Source: a virus
Direction: 5' to 3' (one strand)
DNA length: 42,519 nucleotides
IMG/VR virus record: IMGVR_UViG_3300020478_000017
Span: 1-42,519 of that record
The translations under genes were made by a program, and so were the position numbers. Below are positions 26,642-42,456 of the stretch, in pieces. Numbering within the stretch: position 1 is the first letter of the stretch; every line of letters starts with the position of its first letter. The notes under the pieces were generated by a model. That model did no database searches and was not told where the DNA came from. It saw only the letters and a list, made by a program, of their open reading frames with translations.

Positions 26642-27274
26642 ATGAAAACAATTGATGAGGAAGAAGAGGCTCCGAAGGAGGCCCCAAAGAAGACAGAAGA
26701 TGGTGATATACATTTTTCCCTAGAGGATATTCCCGAGGGTCCCCCTTTGATGGGACTTGTGGGTGACCTCACAGAGGAATCATCTCAGCAACTTGCCATG
26801 TCTTTGTTGACCCTAAACGGGGGAAGCGTCTTGTCGACGCCTGAAGACATTGAGGACCCCACAGACATCGAGTTTTTTATCTCGTCGGGGGGAGGATCGG
26901 TTAATGATATGTTTGCGGTGTATGACTTGATGCAGCTGGTGAAAAAGAACAGAGACATTGCTACGTTTGGGTACGGAAAGATTGCCTCGGCAGCGGTACC
27001 TCTCCTAGCCGCGGGTACGAAAGGAAAGCGGTACGTAGGAAAACATGCACGCCTGATGTTGCACCATTGTGCTACTAACGCCAGCGGCCCTCATCCCAAC
27101 ATTCGATCCAGTTTTGATGAGCTTAAAAAAGTTGAAGACATGATGGTGGAAGTGCTCGCAGCGGATACCAAATTGTCGGTCGGAGAGATATATAATATGA
27201 TCTCGCGAAACACCGATGAATATTTCTCAGCCCAGGAAGCATTAGAAATGGGTATTGTTGATAAAATCATCTAA
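26642..27274 (+). CDS. ClpP-like serine protease
   Basis: The 210-residue protein has an acidic 30-residue extension and then a ClpP-type fold: EFFISSGGGSVNDMFAVYDLM (written in two segments 77-90 and 91-97), the nucleophile Ser116 in GKIASAAVPLLAAG, His141/142 in LMLHHCAT and a C-terminal NTDEYFSAQEALEMGIVDKII as in ClpP. The usual SMG after the nucleophile region is altered to SAA, so it may be a divergent ClpP or a ClpP-fold prohead protease. It follows the acidic core gene and precedes a large virion candidate, which favours head maturation. A strong AGGAGG ribosome site is present. Confidence 0.75.
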   Translation: MKTIDEEEEAPKEAPKKTEDGDIHFSLEDIPEGPPLMGLVGDLTEESSQQLAMSLLTLNGGSVLSTPEDIEDPTDIEFFISSGGGSVNDMFAVYDLMQLVKKNRDIATFGYGKIASAAVPLLAAGTKGKRYVGKHARLMLHHCATNASGPHPNIRSSFDELKKVEDMMVEVLAADTKLSVGEIYNMISRNTDEYFSAQEALEMGIVDKII

Positions 27275-27281
27275 TTAGTAT
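27270..27281 (+). promoter_or_regulatory. Variant late element CTAATTA
   Basis: TCTAATTA at 27270-27277 overlaps the ClpP-like stop and lies 24 bases before ATG 27302, with a CGAGGGT ribosome site between. It differs from the common octamer at two positions, so support is weaker than for the other copies. Confidence 0.25.
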
Positions 27282-27301
27282 TAGCTTACGAGGGTACCCC
27301 C

Positions 27302-29053
27302 ATGGATATTGATGCATTAGTAGAGAGCTTTTATAGTAGCTCCGAAACAGAAGACTTGATTAACGAGGTGATGAAGCTTCTCCTCGTTGAAACTCAATCA
27401 CGAAAGATAGCTTTGAGTTGGGATGGAATTCCCGACATTCCCATTTCTGAGATTCCCTGGTCGGATGTGAAAACTGTTGAGGGTGAGGGGGCTGACATCG
27501 ACGGCCCACAACGTCAACAATTGATGCAGTTCCTTGATGACATCCAGGGCGATGACCTTAAAGACAAGATCGACGGCATCGCAAAGTTTTACGATGCTGA
27601 TGTTTCCCAGCTGACTGCAGCTGCGGAAGGACTATCCCCCAAAAAGCAGATCTCTTACGCTCTGGGGTATCTCACTTTCTTTAAGACCCTCACGAAGATC
27701 ATAGCACACTTTAATGCTTCTTCGGCAGGCTTCTCTTTTGAAGCTTTCCTGGGAGTGTTGCTGGGTGGCAAGCAGATCCCAGCGAGCGGAGCAGACACAA
27801 TTGCGGATCTGGTGGATCAAAAGGGCGTCCCCATTAGCCTTAAGCTTTACACCGCAGGGCAACTTAAAGTGGGTGGTAGCTTTACCGACCTTGCCAACGA
27901 CTTGCGTAAGTATGGACAGATGCAGTACGTGGCTGTCACCAAGACCCTCAATGATGAGAAGACCTCCGGAACTTTAGACTTTTATCGTTTTAATTTTACT
28001 CTTGAGAACATAGCGAACATTCTTGTTAATGCGGGCTTGCATAATCCCGAGGTTATGCAGCTTCCTGCTGCCTTTGTGTCCAACCCGGCCGGCTTTGAGG
28101 ATATTGAAATCCCGGCCCCCCCTAAGATGGAGGAGTTGGTTAAAATTTATGAAGATAGGGTTAAAGAATTGGGGCGCAAATATCCGGAAGAGGTATTAAT
28201 CAATGCCATCGCCGCCGTCGGGCTTCCCGAAGATACCTCCATGCTTAAGGGACAGAAGAAGATCTTCGGCCGCGATGAGTTGCCTAAAATTCGCAGCCCC
28301 AAGGTTTCTACTAGCGGCAACATCAAGCTAGCCCTTCGCATGGGTCTATTGCCCGAGGAGCCCCCTCCTTTCCCGACCAGTACGTCCAAGAAGCCAGAAG
28401 CCGTGGCTGCGCGAGAAGAGTGGATGGAAACATATGGAAAGCGCATCGGGTTGGCGCTAGACGTTTACAACAACGTGGTTGCAACTGCCTACAACGATGT
28501 GGTTGAGGCCACTAAGCGCAATATCGCCGCACGACAAGAGTTAATCAGTCGAGCCGGTGGTGAGTATCTATCGCCGGAGGAGTCGGCAGCTGCCTACAAC
28601 GAGTTGTCTGACGGTCTAAAGAAGAAGGCGCTCCTCCTAACCCACGGTTATGTTAACACGGATCAGTTTGATCTTACGGAACCTCGCGTTCTAGGAATCC
28701 AGAAGCTTGCCTCCGGGAAGGCGATCGGTGACGCTGATGAGAAGACCGAACAGGCGCCAATCACGGAGGCACAGGGTGCGGGTTCTGTGGGGATATTCCC
28801 TGCAGGCCAGGAGCAGGTAAAACTTGGCTCCATTGAGGTGGGACAAGAAAAGGTGGTCGCTCTCTTAGAGAAGGTTTCTGAAATCATTGATACCTCTGTC
28901 TTTGAAATCTTCGAAGAGCTTAAGAGACTAACTACCAACATTCAGGCTTACTTTGGCAACAATCTAGAAGATGACAAGCTAGCTACGGCAGCCATCGATG
29001 CATCTGAATCTATTGGTACAAAAACCGCAGCACTGGCTGACGATGAAGAATAA
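27302..29053 (+). CDS. Large virion-leader protein, nuclease-like region possible
   Basis: The 583-residue protein starts with an amphipathic leader, DLINEVMKLLLVETQS, ending in a possible LVE cleavage site. Around 145-185, FSFEAFLGVLLGG, then GADTIADLVDQKGVPISLKLY, resembles the Glu / Asp-x9-SLK spacing of PD-(D/E)XK nuclease cores. This is a pattern likeness only. The rest is helical, with a Pro-rich segment near 355 and an acidic end. It probably belongs to the virion, perhaps an internal protein. Codon use is biased like other highly expressed genes here. Confidence 0.5.
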   Translation: MDIDALVESFYSSSETEDLINEVMKLLLVETQSRKIALSWDGIPDIPISEIPWSDVKTVEGEGADIDGPQRQQLMQFLDDIQGDDLKDKIDGIAKFYDADVSQLTAAAEGLSPKKQISYALGYLTFFKTLTKIIAHFNASSAGFSFEAFLGVLLGGKQIPASGADTIADLVDQKGVPISLKLYTAGQLKVGGSFTDLANDLRKYGQMQYVAVTKTLNDEKTSGTLDFYRFNFTLENIANILVNAGLHNPEVMQLPAAFVSNPAGFEDIEIPAPPKMEELVKIYEDRVKELGRKYPEEVLINAIAAVGLPEDTSMLKGQKKIFGRDELPKIRSPKVSTSGNIKLALRMGLLPEEPPPFPTSTSKKPEAVAAREEWMETYGKRIGLALDVYNNVVATAYNDVVEATKRNIAARQELISRAGGEYLSPEESAAAYNELSDGLKKKALLLTHGYVNTDQFDLTEPRVLGIQKLASGKAIGDADEKTEQAPITEAQGAGSVGIFPAGQEQVKLGSIEVGQEKVVALLEKVSEIIDTSVFEIFEELKRLTTNIQAYFGNNLEDDKLATAAIDASESIGTKTAALADDEE

Positions 29054-29060
29054 AAATAGT

Positions 29061-29088
29061 TTGACATTTCAAATAAGTATGTTATAAT
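29061..29088 (+). promoter_or_regulatory. Promoter of groEL-like gene
   Basis: TTGACA at 29061-29066, a 16-base spacer, TGT and TATAAT at 29083-29088: consensus -35 and extended -10. No terminator is visible between the previous stop (29053) and this promoter. Confidence 0.75.
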
Positions 29089-29115
29089 AAACAATAGATG
29101 AAAGAGAGGTGACGT

Positions 29116-30690
29116 GTGCCTAACTGTAAATTTGAGAGTCGCTCGGACTTAAATGCGAAAGTGTTGAGAGGAGTCAATACGTTGGCTGATACCGTTGCGA
29201 CCACCCTGGGCCCCAAGGGTCGGAATGTTATTTTGCATCAGCTAGGGAAAGACCCTATTATTACAAAAGACGGAGTGACTGTCAGCGAATTCGTCCACAT
29301 GGATGATGAGTTTGAAAATGCTGCAGCGCAGATTATTAAACAGGCGACCGCACAAACCAACACAATGGCCGGGGATGGAACAACAACCGCCACGGTCCTC
29401 GCGCGCGAGATTCTAGTAGGCGCCCAGCGCTACATCACGGCGGGAGCATCCCCCACCGAACTTAAGCGTGGGATTGATGCGGCAGTGCTCGATCTCACCT
29501 CTGCCCTTCAGTCAGCGGCTATACACATTGAAACTCTAGATGATGTAGAGAACATCGCCACCATCTCTGCGAACAATGATCGAACCATTGGCAGGCTCGT
29601 TGCAACGGCGGTCGACAAGGCAGGCAAGGATGGGGCGATCACGATTGAAGAATCAAAAACAATCGAAACCTCTCTGGATATCATTGAGGGCTTCCGCATC
29701 GAGGCAGGCTACGCGGCCTCAGCGTTTGTAACCGACGACCGCCGCGGCGCAGCCCACTACGATTCGCCGCTCTTTTTGATTACGGATGCGAGGATTGAGA
29801 CAGTCGATCAGATTTTGCCGGCCCTGGAATTAGTATCACGCGATGGTCGCCCCTTGGTTATCATTGCCGAGGACATTCAAGGCCAAGCCTTGGCAGCCCT
29901 GGTAATGAATACGGTTCGCGGGTCGATGAAAATCGCAGCGGTGAAGGCTCCTTTTTATGGAGACAGGCGCCGAGCTATCTTGGCCGACGTGGCCCTCAGC
30001 ACCGGTGCAGAATTCTTTTCGACCGATTCGGAAGTGCGACTCCGAGACATTGAGCTAGCGCATTTTGGACAGTCTCGATCGATTGATATTACCAAAAGCA
30101 CTACTACCATTATCGGAGGGAAGGGTGATTGCGAAGAGATCGAGCGACGTATCGAGTTGCTGAAAATAGAACTTACCGAAACAGATGATATGCGAGAGTG
30201 TGACAAGATTCAAGAGCGCATTACCAAGCTTGGTGCTGGCGTTGCCGTGATCCGTGTTGGCGCTCCTACGGAGGTCGAGATGATTGAAAAGAAGCATCGG
30301 ATTGAGGACGCCCTGGAGGCAGTCAAATCGGCACAGCTAGAAGGGATGGTTCCTGGTGGAGGCGCCGCGCTTTTGCGCGCCGGTTCTGTGTTGGAGAAGA
30401 CCACAGTCGAGAACGACGATCAGCAACTAGGAGTAGATATCATGAAGGCAGCAACTGCCGCACCTCTCCGACAGATGGCCACCAACTGCGGCCTCTCGCC
30501 GGACTTAATCGAAGCCAAAATTCGAAAGGCGCCGAAAAATCGCGGCTACAATTTTCGGGATTTTGAGGTAGTGGATATGTTTAAAGCGGGCATTATCGAC
30601 CCTGCGAAGGTTACACGCGTTGCTTTACAAAATGCTGCATCGGCGGCTGGCACATTAATAACAACTTCGCATGCTATTGTAGAAGTATAG
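29116..30690 (+). CDS. groL: Phage chaperonin GroEL (Cpn60)
   Basis: The 524-residue protein spans the whole chaperonin. Features are VATTLGPKGRNVIL, ITKDGVTVSEFV, AGDGTTTATVLAREI (the nucleotide-binding loop with the catalytic-type Asp), an apical domain from about 190 to 370, then VRVGAPTEVEMIEKKHRIEDALEAV as separate halves and MVPGGGAALLRAG. The Gly/Met tail is missing, as in several phage homologues (EL, OBP). It would fold phage virion or replication proteins with the GroES-like cap at 16561. GTG 29116 is the start, with a GAGAGGTG ribosome site, behind a strong promoter. Confidence 0.92.
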   Translation: MPNCKFESRSDLNAKVLRGVNTLADTVATTLGPKGRNVILHQLGKDPIITKDGVTVSEFVHMDDEFENAAAQIIKQATAQTNTMAGDGTTTATVLAREILVGAQRYITAGASPTELKRGIDAAVLDLTSALQSAAIHIETLDDVENIATISANNDRTIGRLVATAVDKAGKDGAITIEESKTIETSLDIIEGFRIEAGYAASAFVTDDRRGAAHYDSPLFLITDARIETVDQILPALELVSRDGRPLVIIAEDIQGQALAALVMNTVRGSMKIAAVKAPFYGDRRRAILADVALSTGAEFFSTDSEVRLRDIELAHFGQSRSIDITKSTTTIIGGKGDCEEIERRIELLKIELTETDDMRECDKIQERITKLGAGVAVIRVGAPTEVEMIEKKHRIEDALEAVKSAQLEGMVPGGGAALLRAGSVLEKTTVENDDQQLGVDIMKAATAAPLRQMATNCGLSPDLIEAKIRKAPKNRGYNFRDFEVVDMFKAGIIDPAKVTRVALQNAASAAGTLITTSHAIVEV

Positions 30691-30702
30691 GGCTATTTAT
30701 AG
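30691..30702 (+). promoter_or_regulatory. Variant late element GCTATTTA
   Basis: GCTATTTA at 30692-30699 lies 24 bases before ATG 30724, directly after the groEL stop. A CCCGGGAG ribosome-site region follows. The flanking GGGC...GCCC could form a small hairpin around it. Confidence 0.3.
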
Positions 30703-30723
30703 AAGCCCGGGAGATCGCCACCT

Positions 30724-31008
30724 ATGTCAGATGAGGAACAAAGCCAGCAGCTTACCGTCATGATGACGGAGATTGCGACGAAGATGCAAGTTCTGCTGGA
30801 TAAGCAGGATGAGCTAGCCGAGAACATATCTAAAATTAAAGAAGCCGTATACGATCCTGACAAGGGATTATATGCCAGACTGAGCAAGCTCGACGCTCGT
30901 CTAGATGCTTTGGAGGCCTGGAAAAACAATAATACTAAGATTTTATGGATTGTTATAACGGTCGGAGTTGGCCTCGTTTTGTCCACCACCTGGCAGGCAG
31001 TCTTTTAA
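30724..31008 (+). CDS. Coiled-coil protein with C-terminal membrane anchor
   Basis: The 94-residue protein has a helical coiled-coil N-terminus (MTEIATKMQVLLDKQDELAENISKIKEAV over residues 13-41), a second heptad block, LYARLSKLDARLDALEAW, then one transmembrane helix (ILWIVITVGVGLVLSTTW). The layout recalls XhlA-type and holin-accessory proteins, where LxALExW-xNNT precedes the span. A lysis or membrane-association role is possible but unproven. Confidence 0.55.
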   Translation: MSDEEQSQQLTVMMTEIATKMQVLLDKQDELAENISKIKEAVYDPDKGLYARLSKLDARLDALEAWKNNNTKILWIVITVGVGLVLSTTWQAVF

Positions 31009-31021
31009 AAAGGAGAAAAGA

Positions 31022-31345
31022 ATGAGAGTAAAGCTATCTTACACAGTTGAAGAAGAAGATATTTTAAGCGAAGCGGCAAAGATATTAAATATGTCATCGG
31101 ATGACATGCAACAAGCCCTCGATTTATTTAAGCACATACCTAAAGAATTACAGGGAGACCCGGACGCTGGTGAGGTCCCCAACACTTTAAAAGTATTGAA
31201 TATGATAGAAGAATATCGCCAATGTTTGTTGAGCTTGGATCTGCGATTTTCTGAGGTGGCCGCGATTATAGAGGGATATGACAAGCACGTTCGTGTCGAT
31301 GGCCCTCCTGATGAAGCACCCCCACCGCCGATGGAGTCGAAATAG
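31022..31345 (+). CDS. Hypothetical helical protein
   Basis: The 107-residue protein starts at ATG 31022 with AGGAGAAAAG upstream; the in-frame GTG at 30968 lies in the preceding gene. It is helical and acidic, with a Pro-rich tail (DEAPPPPMESK). A short DEEDILSEAAKILNM-like segment at the start looks like a helical hairpin. The family is not recognised. Confidence 0.55.
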   Translation: MRVKLSYTVEEEDILSEAAKILNMSSDDMQQALDLFKHIPKELQGDPDAGEVPNTLKVLNMIEEYRQCLLSLDLRFSEVAAIIEGYDKHVRVDGPPDEAPPPPMESK

Positions 31346-31347
31346 GA

Positions 31348-31602
31348 ATGCCGATGCCGCCTCAAGTTGGTGATTTGGTGCATGTACCTCAGGCCGTCGA
31401 ACTCATAGAACATACGATTCCCCCCGAACAGGACCCCCAGCTTACAATTCCCTTGCGTGTCGTCGTAACTGATTCCCCGACAGTCGGAATAGTTACAGAT
31501 CTCTTTGTGCGCGAAGGATATGTGCGCATGTTTTGTGATGGGGATATGTGGTCGGTAAAGCCCGACAGTCTGTACCCCCTGAAGGGAGAGCCCAGTCGAT
31601 GA
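31348..31602 (+). CDS. Small SH3-like beta-barrel protein (putative)
   Basis: The 84-residue protein is strand-rich: VGDLVHVP, LRVVVTDSPTVGIVTDLFVREGYVRMF (two blocks), WSVKPDSLYPL. The opening xVGDLVxV and central GIVTDL turn are typical of small SH3/KOW-like folds. Similar openings occur at 41057, 42015 and 42443. ATG 31354 has a better spaced AGGA and is an alternative start. The stop overlaps the next ATG. Confidence 0.5.
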   Translation: MPMPPQVGDLVHVPQAVELIEHTIPPEQDPQLTIPLRVVVTDSPTVGIVTDLFVREGYVRMFCDGDMWSVKPDSLYPLKGEPSR

Positions 31603-31880
31603 TTAGATTTATAGAAGTGATAGGAGAAGTGGATTCCGCACAGCTTAGCTTAGGGGAAGTATGGATCAATGAAGCTTATGTAGTGAGCGTACGCGAAGCA
31701 CGCGGCTACCGTTCGTTACTACAAGAGGGGAAGTTGCCCGCGGACCTGAACGAGGCTCACTCCTTTACAACCGTTGTTACCAATAATGGTCATAGCACTC
31801 AGAGTCACGTGGTGGTGGGGAGTCCCATGTCCGTGGCCAAGCGGCTTAAGCCTACTCCGTCCACTCTGCTAAAGGGGTAA
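31599..31880 (+). CDS. Hypothetical beta-rich protein
   Basis: The 93-residue protein is taken from ATG 31599, an ATGA overlap with the preceding stop, with GGGAGAG upstream. Sequence is strand-rich (MIRFIEVIGEV, VWINEAYVVSVREA, SFTTVVTNNGHSTQSHVVVG), and the alternation suggests a small beta protein. No family is recognised. It belongs to the unit leading to the cupin gene. Confidence 0.5.
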   Translation: MIRFIEVIGEVDSAQLSLGEVWINEAYVVSVREARGYRSLLQEGKLPADLNEAHSFTTVVTNNGHSTQSHVVVGSPMSVAKRLKPTPSTLLKG

Positions 31881-31883
31881 AGA

Positions 31884-32288
31884 ATGCCTGGACCACGCAA
31901 CAGCAGTATTATTATAAAGCCGTGGGGCAGTGAGGAAACGTGGGCCAATACGTATTATGCAATGGGCCGGCGCCTAACGATTAAACCGGGCCATCGCCTC
32001 TCTCGCAAATATCACCGCACTAAAGACCTCAGCGTTAGCGTGCTGGAGGGGACGCTGATTGTAGAGGTGGGCCCCCTGATGAAGGACGCCCCTGTTAGTC
32101 AGGTGAGCCTGAGCCCAGGCGAGGGGTACTTTTTAGAAGCGGGCACCATCCATCGCTTTTCTGCGGGCCCCGACGGCGCTCAAATTTTGGAGCTTTCCAG
32201 ACAAGGCGCTTATGATGCCGTTCGTTTGGAAGACGACTACCGCCGAATTAATTCGGTACCGAGCCGCGTACCTCAAAGCGATAAATAA
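31884..32288 (+). CDS. Cupin, mannose-6-phosphate isomerase type II-like
   Basis: The 134-residue protein resembles the C-terminal isomerase half of bacterial ManC: KPWGSEETW, LTIKPGHRLSRKYHRTKDLSVSVLEG (metal-binding His and Glu/Asp region), LSPGEGYFLEAGTIHRFSAG (second cupin motif with His), and AVRLEDDYRRI at the end. Members interconvert fructose-6-phosphate and mannose-6-phosphate. The usual first motif HxH is reduced to one His (KYHRTKD), so metal binding may be altered. It could instead be a non-enzymatic sugar-binding cupin. Confidence 0.65.
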   Translation: MPGPRNSSIIIKPWGSEETWANTYYAMGRRLTIKPGHRLSRKYHRTKDLSVSVLEGTLIVEVGPLMKDAPVSQVSLSPGEGYFLEAGTIHRFSAGPDGAQILELSRQGAYDAVRLEDDYRRINSVPSRVPQSDK

Positions 32289-32300
32289 TACTTTCAGGCC

Positions 32301-32328
32301 TTGACAACAAAATCTCCAGTGTTATAAT
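32301..32328 (+). promoter_or_regulatory. Promoter of hsp20-like gene
   Basis: TTGACA at 32301-32306, a 16-base spacer, TGT and TATAAT at 32323-32328. The expected RNA would begin about 32335, at the hairpin GTAAGC-GGTACA-GCTTAC (32336-32353), leaving a short leader with TAAGGAGAT. Confidence 0.75.
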
Positions 32329-32372
32329 ACACAATGTAAGCGGTACAGCTTACCATTTTAAGGAGATAAAAT

Positions 32373-32783
32373 ATGTACCCCGTTCTTAGTAACAACCTAC
32401 TGCGCAATCAGCGCGCCCTGCTGGACACTGTGTTCGGCGAGGATTTTTTCAGCACCCCTGCCTCTGGTGTGATTGATGATTATTCGGTGCGCACCAATGT
32501 GACCACCACTGATGAGGAGTATCGTATCGATGTCGTTGCTCCGGGTCTCGATAAGAGCGACATGAATGTTAAGGTTGAAGGCAACCAGCTTTATGTTTCT
32601 TATGATAACGAGAATACTGATAAGACTGAGCGAGTTTACTACCGTTCGTTCACTCGCTTCTGGAAGCTTCCGGCTGACGTCGACGCAACCGCCATCCGCG
32701 CCGACTATAAGCAGGGCATTCTGTCCGTCTTTGTTCCCCGCGAGACGGCGCCCACTACTTCCATTGATATTGCCATTAAGTAA
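32373..32783 (+). CDS. Small heat-shock protein, Hsp20 family
   Basis: The 136-residue protein has an alpha-crystallin domain: VTTTDEEYRIDVVAPGLDKSDMNVKVEGNQLYVSY in consecutive strands near 48-85, then VYYRSFTRFWKLPADVDATAIRADYKQGILSVFVPR in two parts, ending in the A-x-x-x-GIL-x-V motif. A 40-residue N-terminal arm (LSNNLLRNQRALLDTVFG) and a short tail ending SIDIAIK follow the family pattern. It would hold unfolded proteins, complementing GroEL. It has a strong promoter, a 5' hairpin and a strong ribosome site, so expression is likely high. Confidence 0.9.
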   Translation: MYPVLSNNLLRNQRALLDTVFGEDFFSTPASGVIDDYSVRTNVTTTDEEYRIDVVAPGLDKSDMNVKVEGNQLYVSYDNENTDKTERVYYRSFTRFWKLPADVDATAIRADYKQGILSVFVPRETAPTTSIDIAIK

Positions 32784-32800: not shown

Positions 32801-32805
32801 AGTTG

Positions 32806-34512
32806 ATGTATTTACGTCAATCTAATAAATGGAAAGAATGGTTATTGCAGGAGGCGATCGAACAAGCTGCCGGTTTGCCTCCTGTAGTAACCCAATTTCT
32901 AAGACAATTAGACCACAACCTTGGTCCCGTCGACGGCACACACCTGACCTGGATCGGTAAAAGCGTCAGAGAGCAGCGTCACCCCCAATTATTTACGCGC
33001 GAAGAGCTTTATGAAATCAGGCGCCACCTTAAGCAAGCGGTGGATATCACCCGACAGAAGCGCGGAATTGACGACAACGAAGTCTTCGGTGAGCTTTGGG
33101 CCGAGGCTCTTGCCCCCCTGATAAAGTTCAGGGCAGAGATTGATAAGCAAAGCCCCAACATTACTGACATAAAGAGATTCAAAAAGAGCTTTCTGAAGAA
33201 CCTGCGTAAGTTGGAAATTGAGCCCGAGTTTATAAAATGGCTTGATTCTTACGTTGACGAACGCATGGAAATAGGCGTACGCAATCACTTTCAGGAGTGG
33301 ATTAAGCCCATCATGGCGCTCCTGAAGGAGGATCCTCTGTCTTACGATGACTTACGAGAAGAGAGCGGACTGGAAATGGCTGCTATTGCTGCCGCAGAGA
33401 TCGCGGCCAATCCCCCCAAAGCCAAAGAGCAAATAATCCACGAGTTTGATAACGGATATTTTTGGTATGATATTAGAAGTAATCACTGTGATTTTGAAGC
33501 CAAAAAGATGGGGCACTGTGGTAAGGGGGAACATGGGACCTTAGTTTCTTTGCGCAGCGGCGAAGGACGAAGTGTCAAACCCATGATCACTATGGACTTT
33601 GACGGTAGCGCTATCTATCAAATCAAAGGCAAAGCCAACAAAGCCCCGGCGGAAAAGCTCTGGCCTTATATTCACTGGTTTATTGAGAACATGGGCGTTG
33701 AACGTATTCTTGAGGATGGCCGCGGCAGTGCTGACGGCGAAGGTTTTTTCAAGCTGCTACAGCACCTTGTTAAAAAGTATGGTAAAGAAGGGACGAAGCA
33801 AATCAGGTTCGAGGAGTCGTGGACCGAAGAGGCCGACGAACTACTTAATCAATTTGAGCCCACTATTGAAACCAACACTCAAACCTTCTTAGAATTGGAT
33901 CGCGCTGAGGAAGGCGGCGATGGTGAGGTGGGTGTTGTGCTGCGACACCAAGTTTTCTGGCCCGTTAAAGATGCCATCGTAGATGAAGATGCGGATCGTT
34001 TAACTTGGGAGATCAAGCAGGATGCCCAGGCATATGCTAACGACACTCTTTATCCCAACCCGCGCGTTCTCCGCGCCGATGTCTTTCCGCGAGGCGTTCA
34101 GGACGGGTATCCTGAGTCCGCCGTGCTTCGTATCGAGCTTTATTGGTCAGATTCCTTTGAGCCCAAAGATCTCAACAATGACGAGCAAGTGAAACACGAG
34201 GTGGGGCGCCTCTTAGAATTCCTAGACGAAGTCCAACACATTTCCCAGTGGCTCGTCAATCCGACCGCGATACGCCCAGATGCCGAGTTTGATTACGGAG
34301 CGTTCAAAGAACGAGTCCGAAAGAGACTAGAGGCATACGGTGTTTACCGCGACCTTCCCGCACGGACTGACGGGGATGCGCCGCAGACGGACCTCCAATC
34401 GTTCGCGGGTATACCTATCCTGCGCCGAGCGGAGCCCGAGGGGGAAGCCGAGACGGATCTCCCCCTCCAAGAGTGGCGCATTATACAGCGTTGGTCTAAA
34501 ATTATTAAATAA
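32806..34512 (+). CDS. Large virion-leader protein with GHC-domain
   Basis: The 568-residue protein starts MYLRQSNKWKEWLLQEAIEQ. The WLLQEA fits an LxE cleavage site like the T4 internal proteins. A helical region (20-215) precedes a distinctive domain near 218-310: YFWYDIRSNHCDFEA, MGHCGKGEHGTLVSLRSGEG, ITMDFDGSAIYQIKGKANKAPAEKLWPYIHWF (in two blocks). I recall a similar His/Cys domain in several phage proteins and near PcfJ-like families but know no activity. The TTG at 32803 is probably not used. It may be a packaged enzyme. Confidence 0.55.
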   Translation: MYLRQSNKWKEWLLQEAIEQAAGLPPVVTQFLRQLDHNLGPVDGTHLTWIGKSVREQRHPQLFTREELYEIRRHLKQAVDITRQKRGIDDNEVFGELWAEALAPLIKFRAEIDKQSPNITDIKRFKKSFLKNLRKLEIEPEFIKWLDSYVDERMEIGVRNHFQEWIKPIMALLKEDPLSYDDLREESGLEMAAIAAAEIAANPPKAKEQIIHEFDNGYFWYDIRSNHCDFEAKKMGHCGKGEHGTLVSLRSGEGRSVKPMITMDFDGSAIYQIKGKANKAPAEKLWPYIHWFIENMGVERILEDGRGSADGEGFFKLLQHLVKKYGKEGTKQIRFEESWTEEADELLNQFEPTIETNTQTFLELDRAEEGGDGEVGVVLRHQVFWPVKDAIVDEDADRLTWEIKQDAQAYANDTLYPNPRVLRADVFPRGVQDGYPESAVLRIELYWSDSFEPKDLNNDEQVKHEVGRLLEFLDEVQHISQWLVNPTAIRPDAEFDYGAFKERVRKRLEAYGVYRDLPARTDGDAPQTDLQSFAGIPILRRAEPEGEAETDLPLQEWRIIQRWSKIIK

Positions 34513-34676
34513 AATCATAATCTTCGCCGTTAAAGAGTTGCTGCTCCCTAGTTACTAGTAGACAAAAGGGTTAGAAAGGACTCAAGGTTGTATGCACAAA
34601 AATAGCGTCCCACGGGAGTATGCAGGTATAGATACCCTTATGTAGTGATGAAGTAACCTAACACGGAGGTCTATTC
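34513..34676. other. 164-bp intergenic region
   Basis: No substantial gene is here. It holds two copies of GTATGCA about 30 bases apart, a small GGTAT-AG-ATACC palindrome at 34625-34636 and a 17-residue frame (34592-34645) that may be a leader peptide or chance. I see no full promoter or terminator. The ACGGAGG at its end is the ribosome site of the next gene. Confidence 0.4.
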
Positions 34677-35528
34677 GTGCGTAGGTGGATTAAAAATTTA
34701 GTAGTTATAACTTCTTTACTTTTAGTAAGTTGTAGCACCCCCCTTGTATCCACAGATACTTCCCCTGCGTCTTCTAATAATTCTGATTTAATTGAGACCG
34801 AAGCTCTTTCGGCCCCCATTGAGGTGCAAACCGTATTTGGAGAGGCCCTCGAAGTATTTGATGCTCCCAATCTTTCTCTTAGCGAACAGCGCGCCCGCCA
34901 GGCTGCGGTAAAAGTTCGTTCACTACTACAAGACGGCCACGGATCAGGAACATATATGATCGCCTACGGCCGGCGCATTGTCGTCACTGCCGCTCACGTT
35001 GTCCGGAGCGAGAGCGTCATGGCAATCGACGGTCGAGATGGTGAGTCGGTCGTAGGCAAGGTCGTCTTTGTGGACGACGATGTAGACTTGGCGTACATTG
35101 TGGTACCCGAGATGGAGACACGTACGGCCATTCGTTATCGCCCTGAGCGCAAATACGACGAGCGATTGATTGGAAGTAAGCTTACTTACACTGGTTTTCC
35201 CTCTCATCATGACCTATTAACAATTCGTGGCTACGTGGCCGCCTTAGAACAAAAAATGATTGTTACAAATATGTTTGGCTGGTTCGGCTCGTCTGGATCC
35301 GGTGTTTATGATCCTCACGGTCGCTTTGTGGGGGTGGTGTCTGGCGTAGACGTCGGGCGCTTTGGCTTTGGGTTGCGTATCCCGCTGGAATCTATTGTGT
35401 GGGTTGCCCCGGCCAGTCAGATTGATCACCAAATGTTAAAGGTGCGCATTAAGACAGCCATCCTACCAGACACCATAAACGCCTTCCCAGGCGCCGCCGC
35501 ACCTAGGCGGGGAGGCCTACAGGATTAG
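34677..35528 (+). CDS. Trypsin-like serine protease lipoprotein
   Basis: The 283-residue protein starts at GTG 34677 (GGAGG 7-8 bases upstream). A signal peptide ends in the lipobox LVSC near 19, next residue Ser. A 45-residue Ser/Thr/Asp linker follows. The protease core has HGSGTYMI, catalytic His in VVTAAHVV, Asp in DDDVDLAYIVV and Ser in FGSSGSGVYD (GSSGSG in place of GNSGGP), then VGVVSGVDVGRFGFGLRIPL, given in two blocks, as the final strands. It is probably tethered to the host outer membrane, periplasmic or outer face. The target is unknown. It is followed 4 bases later by the vWA lipoprotein gene, suggesting joint action. Confidence 0.82.
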   Translation: MRRWIKNLVVITSLLLVSCSTPLVSTDTSPASSNNSDLIETEALSAPIEVQTVFGEALEVFDAPNLSLSEQRARQAAVKVRSLLQDGHGSGTYMIAYGRRIVVTAAHVVRSESVMAIDGRDGESVVGKVVFVDDDVDLAYIVVPEMETRTAIRYRPERKYDERLIGSKLTYTGFPSHHDLLTIRGYVAALEQKMIVTNMFGWFGSSGSGVYDPHGRFVGVVSGVDVGRFGFGLRIPLESIVWVAPASQIDHQMLKVRIKTAILPDTINAFPGAAAPRRGGLQD

Positions 35529-35532
35529 GGCC

Positions 35533-36603
35533 ATGAAACGCTTCTTTGTACTTCTGGCAATCTTGGTATTAGTGGGGTGCATCGAAGGAGACTATGCTCT
35601 CTACAACTTACACGAACCTCCTCCTGCAGAAGTGATCGAAGTTCCTGTAGAAGTTGAAGTTCCTGTAGAAGTTATAGTTGAAGTTGAAGTTCCTGTAGAA
35701 GTTATAGTTGAAGTTCCAGGCGAAGGCGGCGACGTCTGGATTGATTCATTCGAGCAGCCCTTCACGATGGACGGGATTGATATTGTGTGGCTTATTGATC
35801 GCTCTGGCTCGATGCACCAGCACGCCGCGTCCGTGGTGGCAGGAATTGAACAAATGATGCTGTCTCTTCCCCCGGCCGGTTGGCGACTGGGAATCACCAC
35901 CACCGCATGGCAGAACGCAGCTTCAGCTCAAGATTTTCCTCTCGTCCCCGGCGACAGTGTGCAAGACGCTTGGGACGCCTATAACAACCTGGGCAACCAC
36001 GGATTAGAGGCGGGCTTCGATGCATTGTATGCCTACCTTCTAGAAAATACATATAATCAGTCGTGGCTGCGTCCCGATGCCGGCCTTTTGGTTGTTTTTG
36101 TGAGCGATGAAAATGAGCAGAGTCATCGAGACTTCGCGTCTACCCCGGCAGGTCTATCTGATTTTATCAATTGGTATGGGATGCAACGCAATTCGGTTTT
36201 CTTGGCCAGCATAGTTAACGTTGATTCGACCCTCAACGAGTGCGCCTGGCATGTACCTCCATATTATGTGGGAGATCGCTACATGGACGCTACCAACGCT
36301 TTTGGGGGTGTCGTGGTAGATATCTGTTCCGAAGACTGGGCCCCTGGAGTCCAGGCCGCCACTGCTCAGGTTCAGCCCCACGAAGAATGGCCCCTAACCC
36401 ACGTACCCATTGAGGACACGTTGATAGTGTTTGTAGATACTGTGGAGTTCGCCGATTGGTCTTATAATGCGCTAAATAATAGTGTGGAATTTGCGACTAT
36501 TCCGCCCGAGGGTTCATTGGTGGAGATAGGATATGTAATAGATCATCAAGGCGGCGACGATGATGACAGCGCCGGCGACGATGATGATTCGGCAGGGAGT
36601 TGA
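35533..36603 (+). CDS. Von Willebrand factor A lipoprotein
   Basis: The 356-residue protein has a signal peptide with lipobox LVGC near 16 (next residue Ile), a Val/Glu/Pro repeat linker (35-65) and a vWA domain from about 78. The MIDAS motif is DRSGSMHQ (Asp-x-Ser-x-Ser near 92-96), and a later LLVVFVSDENE supplies the acidic site. The C-terminus has a beta domain and ends in a double GDDDDSA linker. vWA domains bind proteins through a divalent metal. It probably partners the protease encoded just upstream, on the host surface. The acidic tail resembles Myxococcota-type lipoproteins. Origin from the host is likely. Confidence 0.82.
   Translation: MKRFFVLLAILVLVGCIEGDYALYNLHEPPPAEVIEVPVEVEVPVEVIVEVEVPVEVIVEVPGEGGDVWIDSFEQPFTMDGIDIVWLIDRSGSMHQHAASVVAGIEQMMLSLPPAGWRLGITTTAWQNAASAQDFPLVPGDSVQDAWDAYNNLGNHGLEAGFDALYAYLLENTYNQSWLRPDAGLLVVFVSDENEQSHRDFASTPAGLSDFINWYGMQRNSVFLASIVNVDSTLNECAWHVPPYYVGDRYMDATNAFGGVVVDICSEDWAPGVQAATAQVQPHEEWPLTHVPIEDTLIVFVDTVEFADWSYNALNNSVEFATIPPEGSLVEIGYVIDHQGGDDDDSAGDDDDSAGS
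35650..35709 (+). repeat. Exact 30-bp tandem repeat in vWA linker
   Basis: Two exact 30-base units (35650-35679 and 35680-35709) with partial copies on both sides encode VEVPVEVIVE-type repeats. Slippage would change linker length in multiples of 10 residues without breaking the frame. Confidence 0.85.
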
Positions 36604-36609
36604 CTAATT

Positions 36610-36876
36610 ATGAATAATAAAGAGGTACTTGTTTTGAAAGATAAATGGAATCCGGGAGCCCACGAGGTTCCCACAGCCCGAGCACTGGAAATGGTGGAAG
36701 TTAATGATGCAGAGTTTAGAGAAACGCCCTTCCCCCTTTCCCTGGAGACACAAAAAAGATTATTAGAATTAATCTACCGACGAAAATCAGGTATAATTAC
36801 TAGACAGGAGTTGATAAATGTTCTCTATAATCAAGAAGATATTGAACCGGGCAACATCATTCGATGCGTTATCTAA
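36610..36876 (+). CDS. Small hypothetical protein
   Basis: The 88-residue protein is helical in its second half (SLETQKRLLELIYRRKSGIITRQELINVLY) and acidic at its end. GGGAG lies about 9 bases upstream of ATG 36610. It overlaps the next gene by 59 bases, in another frame, which is unusual here. No family is recognised. Confidence 0.5.
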   Translation: MNNKEVLVLKDKWNPGAHEVPTARALEMVEVNDAEFRETPFPLSLETQKRLLELIYRRKSGIITRQELINVLYNQEDIEPGNIIRCVI

Positions 36877-37063
36877 GCGTATCACCCAAATAGAAGCCAA
36901 ACTAGAAAGATTTGAAAAGCTGGCCGATGAGAATGAATCATTGTGGCAGTACTTGGATGAGCAGAAGGAAATGGATAACCTATTTGTAGGAACGGCCGAA
37001 GAGTTCGAAGAAGAGTTTACGGATATGATGCTTCGTAACATGAAACCCCATGGCGATGCGTAA
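36818..37063 (+). CDS. Small coiled-coil protein
   Basis: The 81-residue protein has an amphipathic N-terminus (MFSIIKKILNRATSF), a coiled coil (LSKRITQIEAKLERFEKLADENESLW in two blocks) and an acidic tail (TAEEFEEEFTDMML). Start ATG 36818 has an excellent CAGGAG site. It overlaps the phosphomannomutase-like gene by 14 bases. No family is recognised. Confidence 0.55.
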   Translation: MFSIIKKILNRATSFDALSKRITQIEAKLERFEKLADENESLWQYLDEQKEMDNLFVGTAEEFEEEFTDMMLRNMKPHGDA

Positions 37064-37796
37064 CCGTGTCTATCTTTTTGATGTGGACGGAACACTAACC
37101 CCGCCGCTCACCGAAATCAATGATGAGTTCGCTGACATCTTTTTAAGATGGGTGCACGACAAGAAGCGCCACGTTTATTTGGTGACAGGTTCCGACATTG
37201 CTAAGACCAAGCGCCAACTCTTTAGTTCCTTTATAGACCAGTGCGCGGGTATTTTTACGTGCTCAGGGAATGTGTACTATTCCAAGGGTCGTAAAATTTA
37301 TGAAAAGAAGCTTGAGTTGCCTGATGATTTTATAGACAACTTGGAGCTATATCTTGAACATGGCACTTCGTGGCGTAGGAAGACAGGGCGCCACATTGAA
37401 GTGCGACCCGGAATGGTCAATTTTAGTACGGTAGGGAGAAACGCGTCTCCTAATCTGCGGGAAGCCTACGGCAGATGGGACTTCCACTCTCGGGAGCGAG
37501 AGGATATTGTTGATTATATTCAGGGGATCTATCCGGATTTTGAGGCCTCTATTGGGGGCACCATTTCTGTTGATATTTATCCCGCGGGGTGCAATAAAGC
37601 CCAAGTGGTTGAAAAGATCCACGAAGTCCACGGTACCGATGTCGAGATGATCTTTACTGGGGATCGCAATGTTCCAGGGGGTAATGATTGGCCACTGGCG
37701 CAGGCGTTGGAGAAGTTACCGGGCTCTAAGTGGTTCCAGGTCGAAAGTCCAGCAGAAACGCGTGCCCTAATAGAGGGTAACGAACTATTTATATAA
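37050..37796 (+). CDS. HAD-family phosphomannomutase-like protein
   Basis: The 248-residue protein matches the eukaryotic-type alpha-phosphomannomutase pattern: nucleophile loop YLFDVDGTLTPPL near 8-19 (DxDGT), TGSDIAKTKRQL, then IEVRPGMVNFSTVGRNAS, RWDFHSRE, IGGTISVDIYPAGCNKAQVVEKI in two parts and GDRNVPGGNDWPL. These correspond to the sugar-binding cap and the GD-x4-GGND acid motif. It would convert mannose-6-phosphate to mannose-1-phosphate. The alternative start, ATG 37056, is also possible. A related HAD sugar phosphatase cannot be excluded. Confidence 0.75.
   Translation: MAMRNRVYLFDVDGTLTPPLTEINDEFADIFLRWVHDKKRHVYLVTGSDIAKTKRQLFSSFIDQCAGIFTCSGNVYYSKGRKIYEKKLELPDDFIDNLELYLEHGTSWRRKTGRHIEVRPGMVNFSTVGRNASPNLREAYGRWDFHSREREDIVDYIQGIYPDFEASIGGTISVDIYPAGCNKAQVVEKIHEVHGTDVEMIFTGDRNVPGGNDWPLAQALEKLPGSKWFQVESPAETRALIEGNELFI
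37783..37794 (+). promoter_or_regulatory. Candidate late promoter element ACTATTTA
   Basis: ACTATTTA at 37784-37791 overlaps the end of the phosphomannomutase-like gene and ends 7 bases before ATG 37799, with no ribosome site between. Confidence 0.45.
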
Positions 37797-40817: not shown

Positions 40818-40852
40818 CACTCCATTCTTAGGGTGTTATTATTAATAATAAC
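40814..40852 (+). promoter_or_regulatory. Extended -10 promoter with 18-bp palindrome
   Basis: TTGACA at 40814-40819, a 17-base spacer, TGT and TATTAT at 40837-40842. A perfect 18-base palindrome, GTTATTATTAATAATAAC, covers 40835-40852, including the -10 box, and could be an operator. The promoter serves the small-gene cluster from 40866. Confidence 0.65.
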
Positions 40853-40865
40853 CAAGGAGGTAGAA

Positions 40866-41060
40866 ATGGTTTTTCATGGCGATTACGAAATAGAGTTTGA
40901 AATCTATAAAACCAATCAAGGTACCATCCTCTCAGAATTATTGGGCCACATGGTGGGACTTACGGCAGAAGATGCGCGTGAACGATGGCTTGAGCAACAC
41001 AGCTCTGCGATCCCCTGTGAGGATGAGCAAATTGTTGCGGTGGTGCCTGTATTAACATGA
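40866..41060 (+). CDS. Small hypothetical protein
   Basis: The 64-residue protein is taken from ATG 40866, with an ideal AAGGAGG site and its own promoter. The earlier in-frame ATG lies over the palindrome. The sequence looks alpha/beta (EIEFEIYKTNQGTIL, EDARERWLEQH, IVAVVPVL). It overlaps the next gene by 4 bases. No family is recognised. Confidence 0.55.
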   Translation: MVFHGDYEIEFEIYKTNQGTILSELLGHMVGLTAEDARERWLEQHSSAIPCEDEQIVAVVPVLT

Positions 41061-41269
41061 GGATTGAAGTAGGAGATTTAGTGAGAATCCGAGGACGCGA
41101 TTGGCTCGGACGCCCGTTGGCGCTTGTTACTGAAGTTCGTCGCCTGGTTCACGACCAAAGTGGCGAGGGCTACACGGCTGTGAGTGCTGTTTCCGGGGGA
41201 GAAATCTTCACGTTCTCAGAGAAAGACTTTGAGCTTATCCGAAAAGGGCGCCCAAATGAAAATGAATAG
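41057..41269 (+). CDS. Small SH3-like protein (putative)
   Basis: The 70-residue protein is strand-rich, IEVGDLVRIRGRDWLGRPLALVTEV in two blocks, followed by YTAVSAVSGGEIFTFSEKDFELI. The VGDLVxI opening and final EKDFELI strand are typical of small SH3/KOW folds. It shares its N-terminal pattern with 31348, 42015 and 42443. It overlaps both neighbours. Confidence 0.5.
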   Translation: MRIEVGDLVRIRGRDWLGRPLALVTEVRRLVHDQSGEGYTAVSAVSGGEIFTFSEKDFELIRKGRPNENE

Positions 41270-41486
41270 GCTGGTGTGGTTTAGTTTGCTGTTGGTGGGC
41301 TGCGCGCATATCTCGCCTCCCACTGTGACGGGAGAGTGCCCACATGATCGTCCGGTGAAAGGAAATGCCACCTCCAACATTTACCATACACCGAAGAGCC
41401 TCTATTACGAGCAGACTTCTGCGGAGATTTGTTTTGACTCAGCACAGACAGCCCGCAAGCACGGATTTATTCCCCCAAAAAGATGA
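41256..41486 (+). CDS. Sunset-domain-like lipoprotein
   Basis: The 76-residue protein starts at ATG 41256 with AAAAGGG upstream and overlaps the previous gene by 14 bases. A signal with lipobox LVGC near 16 (next residue Ala) is followed by a domain with VKGNATSNIYHTPKSLYYEQT and CFDSAQTARKHGFIPPKR. The VKGN...IYH...YY...T...CF...A...GF.PxKR pattern matches the sunset domain found C-terminal in some secreted nucleases. No nuclease is present here. It may act as a binding module on the cell surface. Confidence 0.65.
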   Translation: MKMNRLVWFSLLLVGCAHISPPTVTGECPHDRPVKGNATSNIYHTPKSLYYEQTSAEICFDSAQTARKHGFIPPKR

Positions 41487-41493
41487 TTTTTTC

Positions 41494-41522
41494 TTGACAT
41501 AGTCGTGACATCTTGCTACACT
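41494..41522 (+). promoter_or_regulatory. Extended -10 promoter
   Basis: TTGACA at 41494-41499, a 17-base spacer, TGC and TACACT at 41517-41522. It lies directly after the lipoprotein stop and serves the gene at 41545. Confidence 0.65.
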
Positions 41523-41544
41523 AAGAGAATAGGAGGCTATGTTT

Positions 41545-42015
41545 ATGGATAGTCAGAAAACCAACGAATTGTATGAAAGGTTTCCTCATTTGTACCGCGA
41601 GAGATCGGCTCCACTGGAGAGTTCGGGGATGCCTTGGGGATTTCAATGTGAAACAGGATGGTATAAAATAATTTACGAAATGTCAAAAAAGATCGCAAAG
41701 ATATCGACAGAGGGAGAACACGCACCGGCAATTTCGCTGGTTTCGAGACACGAAGACGGGACGCTATATGTTGCAGTCCGTAACATCACACCCCCGATTG
41801 CCGATATCGTTATGAGTGCTACAGAACAGTCGCGTTTAACGTGCGAGTTTTGTGGCTACACTCCGGCATTCCTCAGAGAGGGGAAGGGCCCTCACGAGGG
41901 ACGTATCGCCTGTGGACGTTGTGTGCGCAAGGCGACGGGTACCCAGTCCCCCAAGACACGAAAACCCAAGAGAAAGCCACGTAGGGCGCCTGACACGATT
42001 GTGGTGAAAAGGTGA
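41545..42015 (+). CDS. Zinc-finger-like phage protein
   Basis: The 156-residue protein is taken from ATG 41545, where GGAGG is 8 bases upstream; ATG 41539 is only 2 bases from it. A MPWGFQCETGWYKIIYEMSKKI segment (two blocks) near 28-48 is typical of a phage family I recall without function. C-x2-C near 99 (CEFCGY) and C-x2-C near 124 (CGRC) give a four-Cys zinc site. The C-terminus is basic (KTRKPKRKPRRAPD) and may bind nucleic acid. Confidence 0.6.
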   Translation: MDSQKTNELYERFPHLYRERSAPLESSGMPWGFQCETGWYKIIYEMSKKIAKISTEGEHAPAISLVSRHEDGTLYVAVRNITPPIADIVMSATEQSRLTCEFCGYTPAFLREGKGPHEGRIACGRCVRKATGTQSPKTRKPKRKPRRAPDTIVVKR

Positions 42016-42251
42016 TGGATACTTTGGTTGTAGGCGATTTAGTTCGCGATAAATTGAACAAGGATGATGGATCTTACGGTATAGGAGTGATAGTGGGCCT
42101 TCGAGATGCCCCCGATCCCCCTTATTATACGTTGGAGGAAGATTATCCAAAGTATGCTGATGATGGGATGCCGGGGAAACGGTATGATGTTTATTTTACA
42201 AGATTTGAAAGAACAATAACATTTCATGGAGATTACCTTGAAAAAGTTTGA
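42015..42251 (+). CDS. Small SH3-like protein (putative)
   Basis: The 78-residue protein starts on a TGATG overlap with the previous stop. It is strand-rich with VGDLVRDKLNKDDGSYGIGVIVGLR (two blocks) and a Tyr-rich end (KRYDVYFTRFERTITFHGDYL). It is probably a relative of the other GDLV proteins. Its end overlaps the next gene by 26 bases. Confidence 0.5.
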   Translation: MDTLVVGDLVRDKLNKDDGSYGIGVIVGLRDAPDPPYYTLEEDYPKYADDGMPGKRYDVYFTRFERTITFHGDYLEKV

Positions 42252-42456
42252 TATGGACGCTTATATTAAGCGAAGAATAAGAGAGCTACGGGGAGAGAAG
42301 ATGTACACATCTCAGCCTGGCGACGAAGTAGGTCGCTACATTGAGCGCCGCCTTCGGGAATTGCGTGATTGTCAGGATAATGGATCTACCCTTGACAAAA
42401 GCATCCTGGGGTGCTACACTGTAGGTACGATGGGAGATGACGATGGCGAGAGCTAG
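42226..42456 (+). CDS. Small charged repeat protein
   Basis: The 76-residue protein has two copies of a helix motif, YIKRRIRELRGEK and RYIERRLRELRDC, about 24 residues apart. Start is uncertain: ATG 42226 or ATG 42253, neither with a strong ribosome site. Its 3' part contains a promoter and the start of the next gene. No family is recognised. Confidence 0.4.
   Translation: MEITLKKFDMDAYIKRRIRELRGEKMYTSQPGDEVGRYIERRLRELRDCQDNGSTLDKSILGCYTVGTMGDDDGES
42392..42420 (+). promoter_or_regulatory. Extended -10 promoter
   Basis: TTGACA at 42392-42397, a 17-base spacer, TGC and TACACT at 42415-42420. It lies inside the preceding gene and feeds the gene at 42443. Confidence 0.65.

Follow-up and report, generated by a model that had tools for sequence, protein, structure and literature searches.

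A lipoprotein serine protease and an optional vWA adhesin-like lipoprotein predicted in an uncultured clade of large phages

A 42.5-kb IMG/VR fragment (the whole stretch analysed here, hereafter the window) carries two neighboring genes whose predicted products, a trypsin-like protease and a vWA protein, both carry a lipobox. Such a locus raises the question of what a phage would do with two proteins of this kind in the envelope of its host, and whether they work as a pair. We addressed it by comparing both genes with those of related phages and with bacterial genomes.

Results

Genomic setting of the two genes

Both open reading frames are present in the window, and the gap between them is 4 bases (the TAG stop codon of the protease gene ends at 35528 and the ATG start codon of the vWA gene is at 35533). 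The features of the locus are as follows.

26642-27274, + strand: ClpP-like protease or prohead protease (Pfam CLP_protease, 1.1e-33; PHROG head maturation protease)
29061-29088, + strand: consensus sigma-70 promoter with TGT before the -10 element, upstream of groEL
29116-30690, + strand: GroEL; context, used as an independent marker
32301-32328, + strand: consensus sigma-70 promoter (TTGACA-16-TATAAT) with TGT before the -10 element, upstream of hsp20; possible read-through to the gene pair
32373-32783, + strand: Hsp20 small heat-shock protein (Pfam HSP20, 7.8e-17)
32803-34512, + strand: 569-aa protein with no assigned function, between hsp20 and the leader; context
34530-34676, + strand: conserved non-coding leader of the protease gene, about 150 nt; probably a structured 5' UTR and/or promoter
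34677-35528, + strand: predicted lipoprotein serine protease, 283 aa, GTG start; lipobox LVSC (Cys19), Trypsin_2 domain at about 77-225, triad H107/D137/S206
35533-36603, + strand: predicted lipoprotein, vWA/MIDAS adhesin-like, 356 aa; lipobox LVGC (Cys16), vWA domain at about 83-270
37050-37796, + strand: HAD/phosphomannomutase-like (PMM) protein, 3' of the pair; context

The first-pass annotation had described two adjacent lipoprotein genes, 4 bases apart, in a phage structural region. The coordinates and the invariant lipobox Cys in the alignments of both proteins confirmed the adjacent lipoprotein genes. The structural setting, however, was not borne out: the genes 5' of the pair encode UvsX, a helicase, ribonucleotide reductase, DNA polymerase, dUTPase, and an IMPDH-like protein, followed by the ClpP-like protease, GroEL, and Hsp20, and the contractile tail sheath of the relative G001 (193,778 bp) lies far from the gene pair. 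We regard the source phages as an uncultured clade of contractile-tailed phages of about 190 kb. The region from 26642 to 32783 forms a proteostasis-like phage cluster (ClpP-like protease, GroEL, and Hsp20) close to the lipoprotein protease gene.

When the window protease and vWA genes were compared with those of other phages, synonymous sites were near saturation and pN was about 0.11-0.28. As judged from these substitution patterns, both genes are under strong purifying selection. Since synonymous sites are close to saturated at low pN and many contigs share the synteny of the pair, the genes are not chance open reading frames.

The protease

The GTG start codon of the protease gene is preceded by GGAGG, and the encoded N-terminus comprises, by inspection, a basic n-region, a hydrophobic stretch, and the lipobox LVSC (signal MRRWIKNLVVITSLLLVSC). 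In an alignment of nine phage proteases Cys19 was invariant and the remainder of the N-terminus was variable; the motif and its conservation suggest that the protease is a lipoprotein.

Pfam Trypsin_2 (PF13365) matched the window protein with 52.2 bits against a cut-off of 27.6, a cut-off exceeded in all 16 of the 16 records searched, and PHROG_9683 ('protease') also matched it. The complete-looking triad noted in the first-pass annotation held up on alignment: H107, D137, and S206 were invariant in the nine phages, whose proteases are 43-77% identical, and no triad residue was missing. Alignment to staphylococcal Jep, the closest solved sequence by profile (E 1.6e-6), sets the register in which S206 is the nucleophile (GSSGSG in the GxSGxP register). 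S208 was ruled out as the nucleophile by this register and by its replacement with Ala in the distant relative L013.

The AlphaFold model of the protease had a mean pLDDT of 70, with most ten-residue blocks of the core above 75, and its top Foldseek matches were DegS, MucD, and DegQ (E about 1e-10), suggesting an HtrA-like fold. No Pfam PDZ match was found in the protein, in which about 38 residues follow the last strand, and the NCBIfam HtrA/Deg cut-offs were not reached (degP_htrA_DO, 24.8 vs 416; MarP, 30.2 vs 250). Eight of the nine aligned proteases share, with slight differences, the C-terminal tail FPGAxAPRRGGxxD. Among the PADLOC defence markers, the protease resembled only RT-Protease_XI and LmuA, weakly and through its trypsin domain, and the vWA protein resembled none. 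Taken together, the sequence features point to an intact PA-clan trypsin-like protease with an HtrA-like fold and predicted activity.

The vWA protein

The second protein consists of a lipobox, a linker of EVPVEV repeats, a vWA domain, a C-terminal beta-rich region containing an invariant W309, and GDDDDSAG repeats. Its N-terminus likewise shows, by inspection, a basic n-region, a hydrophobic stretch, and the lipobox LVGC (signal MKRFFVLLAILVLVGC). Cys16 was invariant in an alignment of eight phage vWA proteins, and this conserved motif suggests a lipoprotein.

Pfam PF00092 scored the window protein just under its cut-off (23.4 vs 23.8) and exceeded the cut-off in 6 of 16 related records in a genome-level search. 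The first-pass annotation had called the domain MIDAS-containing, which held in substance: the DxSxS residues (D89, S91, and S93) and D192/E193 of an SDE motif were invariant in the phage alignment, but the canonical MIDAS Thr was not recognizable, and that region instead holds a Glu (E159) conserved in phage and bacterial homologues. Because the usual Thr is replaced by a conserved Glu, the metal motif is best described as a family variant of MIDAS. Foldseek matched the vWA model, which is of low confidence (pLDDT 53), to integrin I domains.

The sole NCBIfam match of the window vWA protein was NF052240, the Bdellovibrio MIDAS-family adhesin (E 2.8e-5), with a score of 23.5 that does not reach the equivalog cut-off of 700 bits. 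In Bdellovibrio, Bd0875 is a lipobox-bearing surface lipoprotein adhesin needed for efficient prey invasion, and its MIDAS residues D66 (the Asp of DxSxS) and E213 are required for function (PMC11003981). The invariant D89 and E193 of the window protein are the equivalents of these two residues; E193 appears to be the match of E213 on the strength of its assignment to position 213 of the NF052240 profile, which was inferred from hmmscan end coordinates. The two residues are 104 positions apart in the window protein vs 147 in Bd0875, and because of this shorter spacing the Bd0875 cap (143-176) is probably missing from the phage protein.

Distribution and history of the two genes in phages

As the earlier reading anticipated, the pair recurs in related phages: the protease gene lies directly upstream of the vWA gene in 16 of the 16 viral contigs that carry a vWA gene. 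The more distant pieces L069 and L073 carry both genes. With GroEL as an independent marker, nine contigs reached far enough to be scored, and the protease gene was present in all nine and the vWA gene in seven. In the related contigs L019 and L020, the protease gene is followed at once by the homologue of the window gene at 36610, with no vWA gene between them; the distant phage piece L072/L107 has a vWA gene with no protease gene nearby. The vWA relative in L107 (5562-7137) adjoins homologues of another, distant gene block of G001. L034 carries a distant protease (29%) that no vWA gene adjoins; a remote vWA gene lies at another place in its contig.

Pairwise distances of the protease were correlated with those of GroEL, PMM, and NTase (r 0.74, 0.86, and 0.69, respectively), which argues that the protease is a backbone phage gene. 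The corresponding values for the vWA protein were -0.12, 0.25, and -0.08; since its distances do not track the phage backbone, the vWA gene is a separately exchanged, optional cassette. The distances of the two proteins were themselves correlated with r 0.13. The idea of a single functional pair, implied by the first-pass annotation, is weakened by the unpaired contigs (L019/L020 and L072/L107) and the different histories of the genes. As the two genes do not co-evolve and either can be found alone, there is no need to assume a joint mechanism.

Leader and promoters

The leader of the protease gene was 64-92% identical between phages (the near-identical L019/L020 pair excluded), vs 26-62% for the 4-fold sites of the protease gene. 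Within the contigs inspected it was seen only at the protease gene, where it is kept when the vWA gene is absent. A CACG...CGTG hairpin embraces the SD sequence and the GTG start codon in most members (by inspection). In the consensus fold, 98% of cells were paired and the covariation score was 0.164, whereas slid controls scored no higher than 0.074; both partners vary in only two of the pairs. The window leader folded singly showed no unusual stability (z +0.5), and the leader had no match in Rfam. The evidence for a structured leader is its conservation and modest covariation, and the leader may act as a promoter, as a cis-regulatory RNA, or in both roles. In the distant relatives L008, L010, and L013, the leader keeps TTACT...AGAAAGG-like blocks and its hairpins differ. 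Both the window and G001 contain just one copy of the leader, and the possibility that it is a repeated phage promoter motif was dropped on that ground.

Thirteen sigma-70 sites matching the consensus at 11/12 or better were found in the window, all on the + strand. Those upstream of groEL and hsp20 both match at 12/12 and recur at matching places in many divergent phages. Because these consensus promoters are conserved, early expression of hsp20 by the host RNA polymerase is likely. The protease leader of L010 and L013 comes after an apparent intrinsic terminator, so transcription of the pair from the hsp20 promoter cannot be general.

Bacterial relatives of the vWA protein

An alignment-based scan of genomes with the vWA protein found nothing, and a scan for the motif VFVSDE[ED][ED]QS found 21 loci. 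The bacterial relatives so obtained matched NF052240 (1e-11 to 1e-22), and CglD was a further match for three of the four relatives scanned. A survey with the vWA family profile covered Bdellovibrionota, Myxococcota, Pseudomonadota, and the phylum of G018; the profile matched 77 of the 144 genomes of Bdellovibrionota and 48 of the 96 of Myxococcota. In 200 genomes of Pseudomonadota (to which G017 belongs) and 100 from the phylum of G018, no true chromosome matched; these 300 genomes gave a single match, a phage contig wrongly binned with the centre genome. The pair was also sought on bacterial chromosomes and was not found there: the 144 Bdellovibrionota genomes gave seven weak protease matches, all away from the vWA matches.

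The phage vWA sequences formed one clade (100/99) on a long branch, 24-32% identical to the nearest bacterial members found. From these comparisons, the kin of the phage vWA protein appear to be lipobox MIDAS adhesins of the Bd0875 type and CglD-like lipoproteins. This kinship is the one source of a hint that the hosts belong to the Bdellovibrionota or Myxococcota. The nearest cultured phages gave no host lead, as their related DNA polymerase, tail sheath, and GroEL are all below 60% identity and their hosts are unrelated.

L069, L072, and L073, from bins named Pelagibacter, Neomarinimicrobiota, and WOR-3, were rejected as bacterial copies: each is a piece of phage DNA from this clan that was put in the wrong bin. 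In the WOR-3 'chromosome' CP070664.1 (L103, G016:C1:1-20000, and following), the initial ~29 kb is homologous to the phage clade, and for this reason the WOR-3 MAG probably carries a misassembled phage piece.

Discussion

The intact triad, the lipoboxes, the synteny, the selection, the family kinship, and the optional vWA gene, all read from sequence, lead us to propose that a backbone phage protease and an optional captured vWA adhesin remodel the envelope of the infected cell; we put the probability of this reading at about one half. The protease, with its lipid anchor and PDZ-less HtrA/DegS-like catalytic domain, would reach the envelope of the infected cell by export and cleave envelope proteins there. 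It would be made under its own conserved leader, beside the phage ClpP-like, GroEL, and Hsp20 genes. The vWA protein would be an optional, lipid-anchored addition to the envelope whose metal site binds a surface ligand, and both proteins would change what the surface of the infected cell binds or exposes. The benefit would most likely be that further phages are blocked from adsorbing or that the envelope is kept working during infection. The combination of a fixed lipoprotein protease and an optional adhesin-type lipoprotein is the reason why we think that the phage probably remodels the exterior of its host.

Known systems resemble the two proteins in part. HtrA, DegP, and DegS (PA clan, S1C) share the catalytic fold, the triad, and the inferred envelope location with the phage protease, whereas the latter has no PDZ domain and has a lipoprotein anchor and a conserved APRRGG C-terminal tail. 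Staphylococcal Jep/SplE and the glutamyl endopeptidases (S1B) have a GxSGSP-like nucleophile region; however, they are secreted Gram-positive enzymes without a lipid anchor. Bd0875 (NF052240) and CglD-like proteins (NF033765) share with the vWA protein the lipobox, a vWA domain with DxSxS and the acidic residue needed in Bd0875, and a C-terminal beta domain with conserved Trp/Tyr; the window protein differs in being phage encoded, in its EVPVEV linker and DDDDSAG tail, and in its low identity to them. In the MoxR-vWA chaperone pairs of jumbo phages, a phage vWA protein is likewise linked to peptidase and chaperone functions, but there the partner is a MoxR ATPase and the peptidase is a metallopeptidase fusion (PMC7824862), whereas the pair described here consists of predicted lipoproteins. 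No MoxR AAA+ ATPase was found among the window proteins scanned with PHROGs and Pfam. Intracellular conflict systems (MoxR-vWA-trypsin and RT-protease) were set aside on account of the lipoboxes and the missing partners.

Two narrower explanations are possible, though each falls well short of even odds. The locus may serve superinfection exclusion proper, the protease destroying or trimming a phage receptor or the vWA protein covering it, so that later phages cannot adsorb. Llp of T5 is a phage lipoprotein that acts in the envelope, with an established role in superinfection exclusion (PMC9586334), and it offers a precedent, albeit by a different mechanism: Llp and Cor, like the window proteins, are phage lipoproteins made in the infected cell, but they are small, non-enzymatic proteins that jam TonB-dependent receptors, and the two proteins studied here show no kinship to them and differ in size and family. 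The lipoprotein topology of both proteins and the possible early expression from consensus sigma-70 promoters fit exclusion, and MIDAS lipoproteins of the host are surface exposed and could be receptors (PMC11003981); no receptor is known, however, and two phages dispense with the vWA gene. The other explanation, which we rate similarly, makes the protease a phage HtrA-like agent of envelope quality control within the ClpP-like/GroEL/Hsp20 cluster and the vWA protein functionally unrelated to it. The HtrA-like fold, the proteostasis-type neighbors, and a protease that tracks backbone genes and persists without the vWA gene agree with this, but the PDZ domain is missing, a prohead protease is an alternative identity for the ClpP-like protein, neighborhood is no proof of a common pathway, and the surroundings of the active site also match Spl/V8-type proteases.

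More doubtful is an effect on host attachment, a reading that was not in the first-pass annotation and comes from the vWA family assignment: through the vWA adhesin, an infected predator or glider would stay attached to prey, kin, or surfaces, or attach differently, in favor of phage production or spread. The kinship with Bdellovibrio MIDAS adhesins and CglD and the confinement of the family to Bdellovibrionota and Myxococcota within the sample speak for it, whereas the host assignment is a hint, the identity is low, and the phage protein need not have kept the ligand. A bolder version, in which the phages infect such predators or gliders (Bdellovibrionota or Myxococcota), the captured MIDAS adhesin alters their grip on prey or kin, and the protease is controlled by a new structured cis-regulatory RNA, is more doubtful still when taken as a whole. 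It is improbable that the proteins are virion-associated (an assembly protease and a tail adhesin) and were misread as lipoproteins: a remote vWA match adjoins a structural gene in Moorella phage MTATph1, and the vWA gene of L107 has homologues of a distant block of G001 genes close by, but the lipobox Cys is invariant in both families amid otherwise variable N-termini, and in G001 the tail sheath is distant from the pair. A role in lysis or release at the outer membrane would be compatible with the envelope location and the predicted protease activity, yet no spanin, holin, or endolysin partner rose above weak, chance-level matches among the neighbors scanned, and we consider this role very improbable.

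Text searches of the open-access literature found no description of a phage-encoded lipoprotein of the Bdellovibrio MIDAS-adhesin/CglD type. What is new is an adhesin type carried by phages, a lipoprotein protease belonging to the phage backbone, and the leader of that protease; the mechanism that we attach to them is inferred. If such a phage lipoprotein is confirmed, it would indicate which hosts a whole uncultured clade of large phages infects and would show phages acting on the machinery by which predatory or gliding bacteria adhere. The protease, as a backbone gene preceded by a conserved leader, opens phage-directed envelope proteolysis to experimental test. Farther downstream in the window, positions 40833-42456 hold small conserved genes, some of which are accompanied by conserved sigma-70-like sites.
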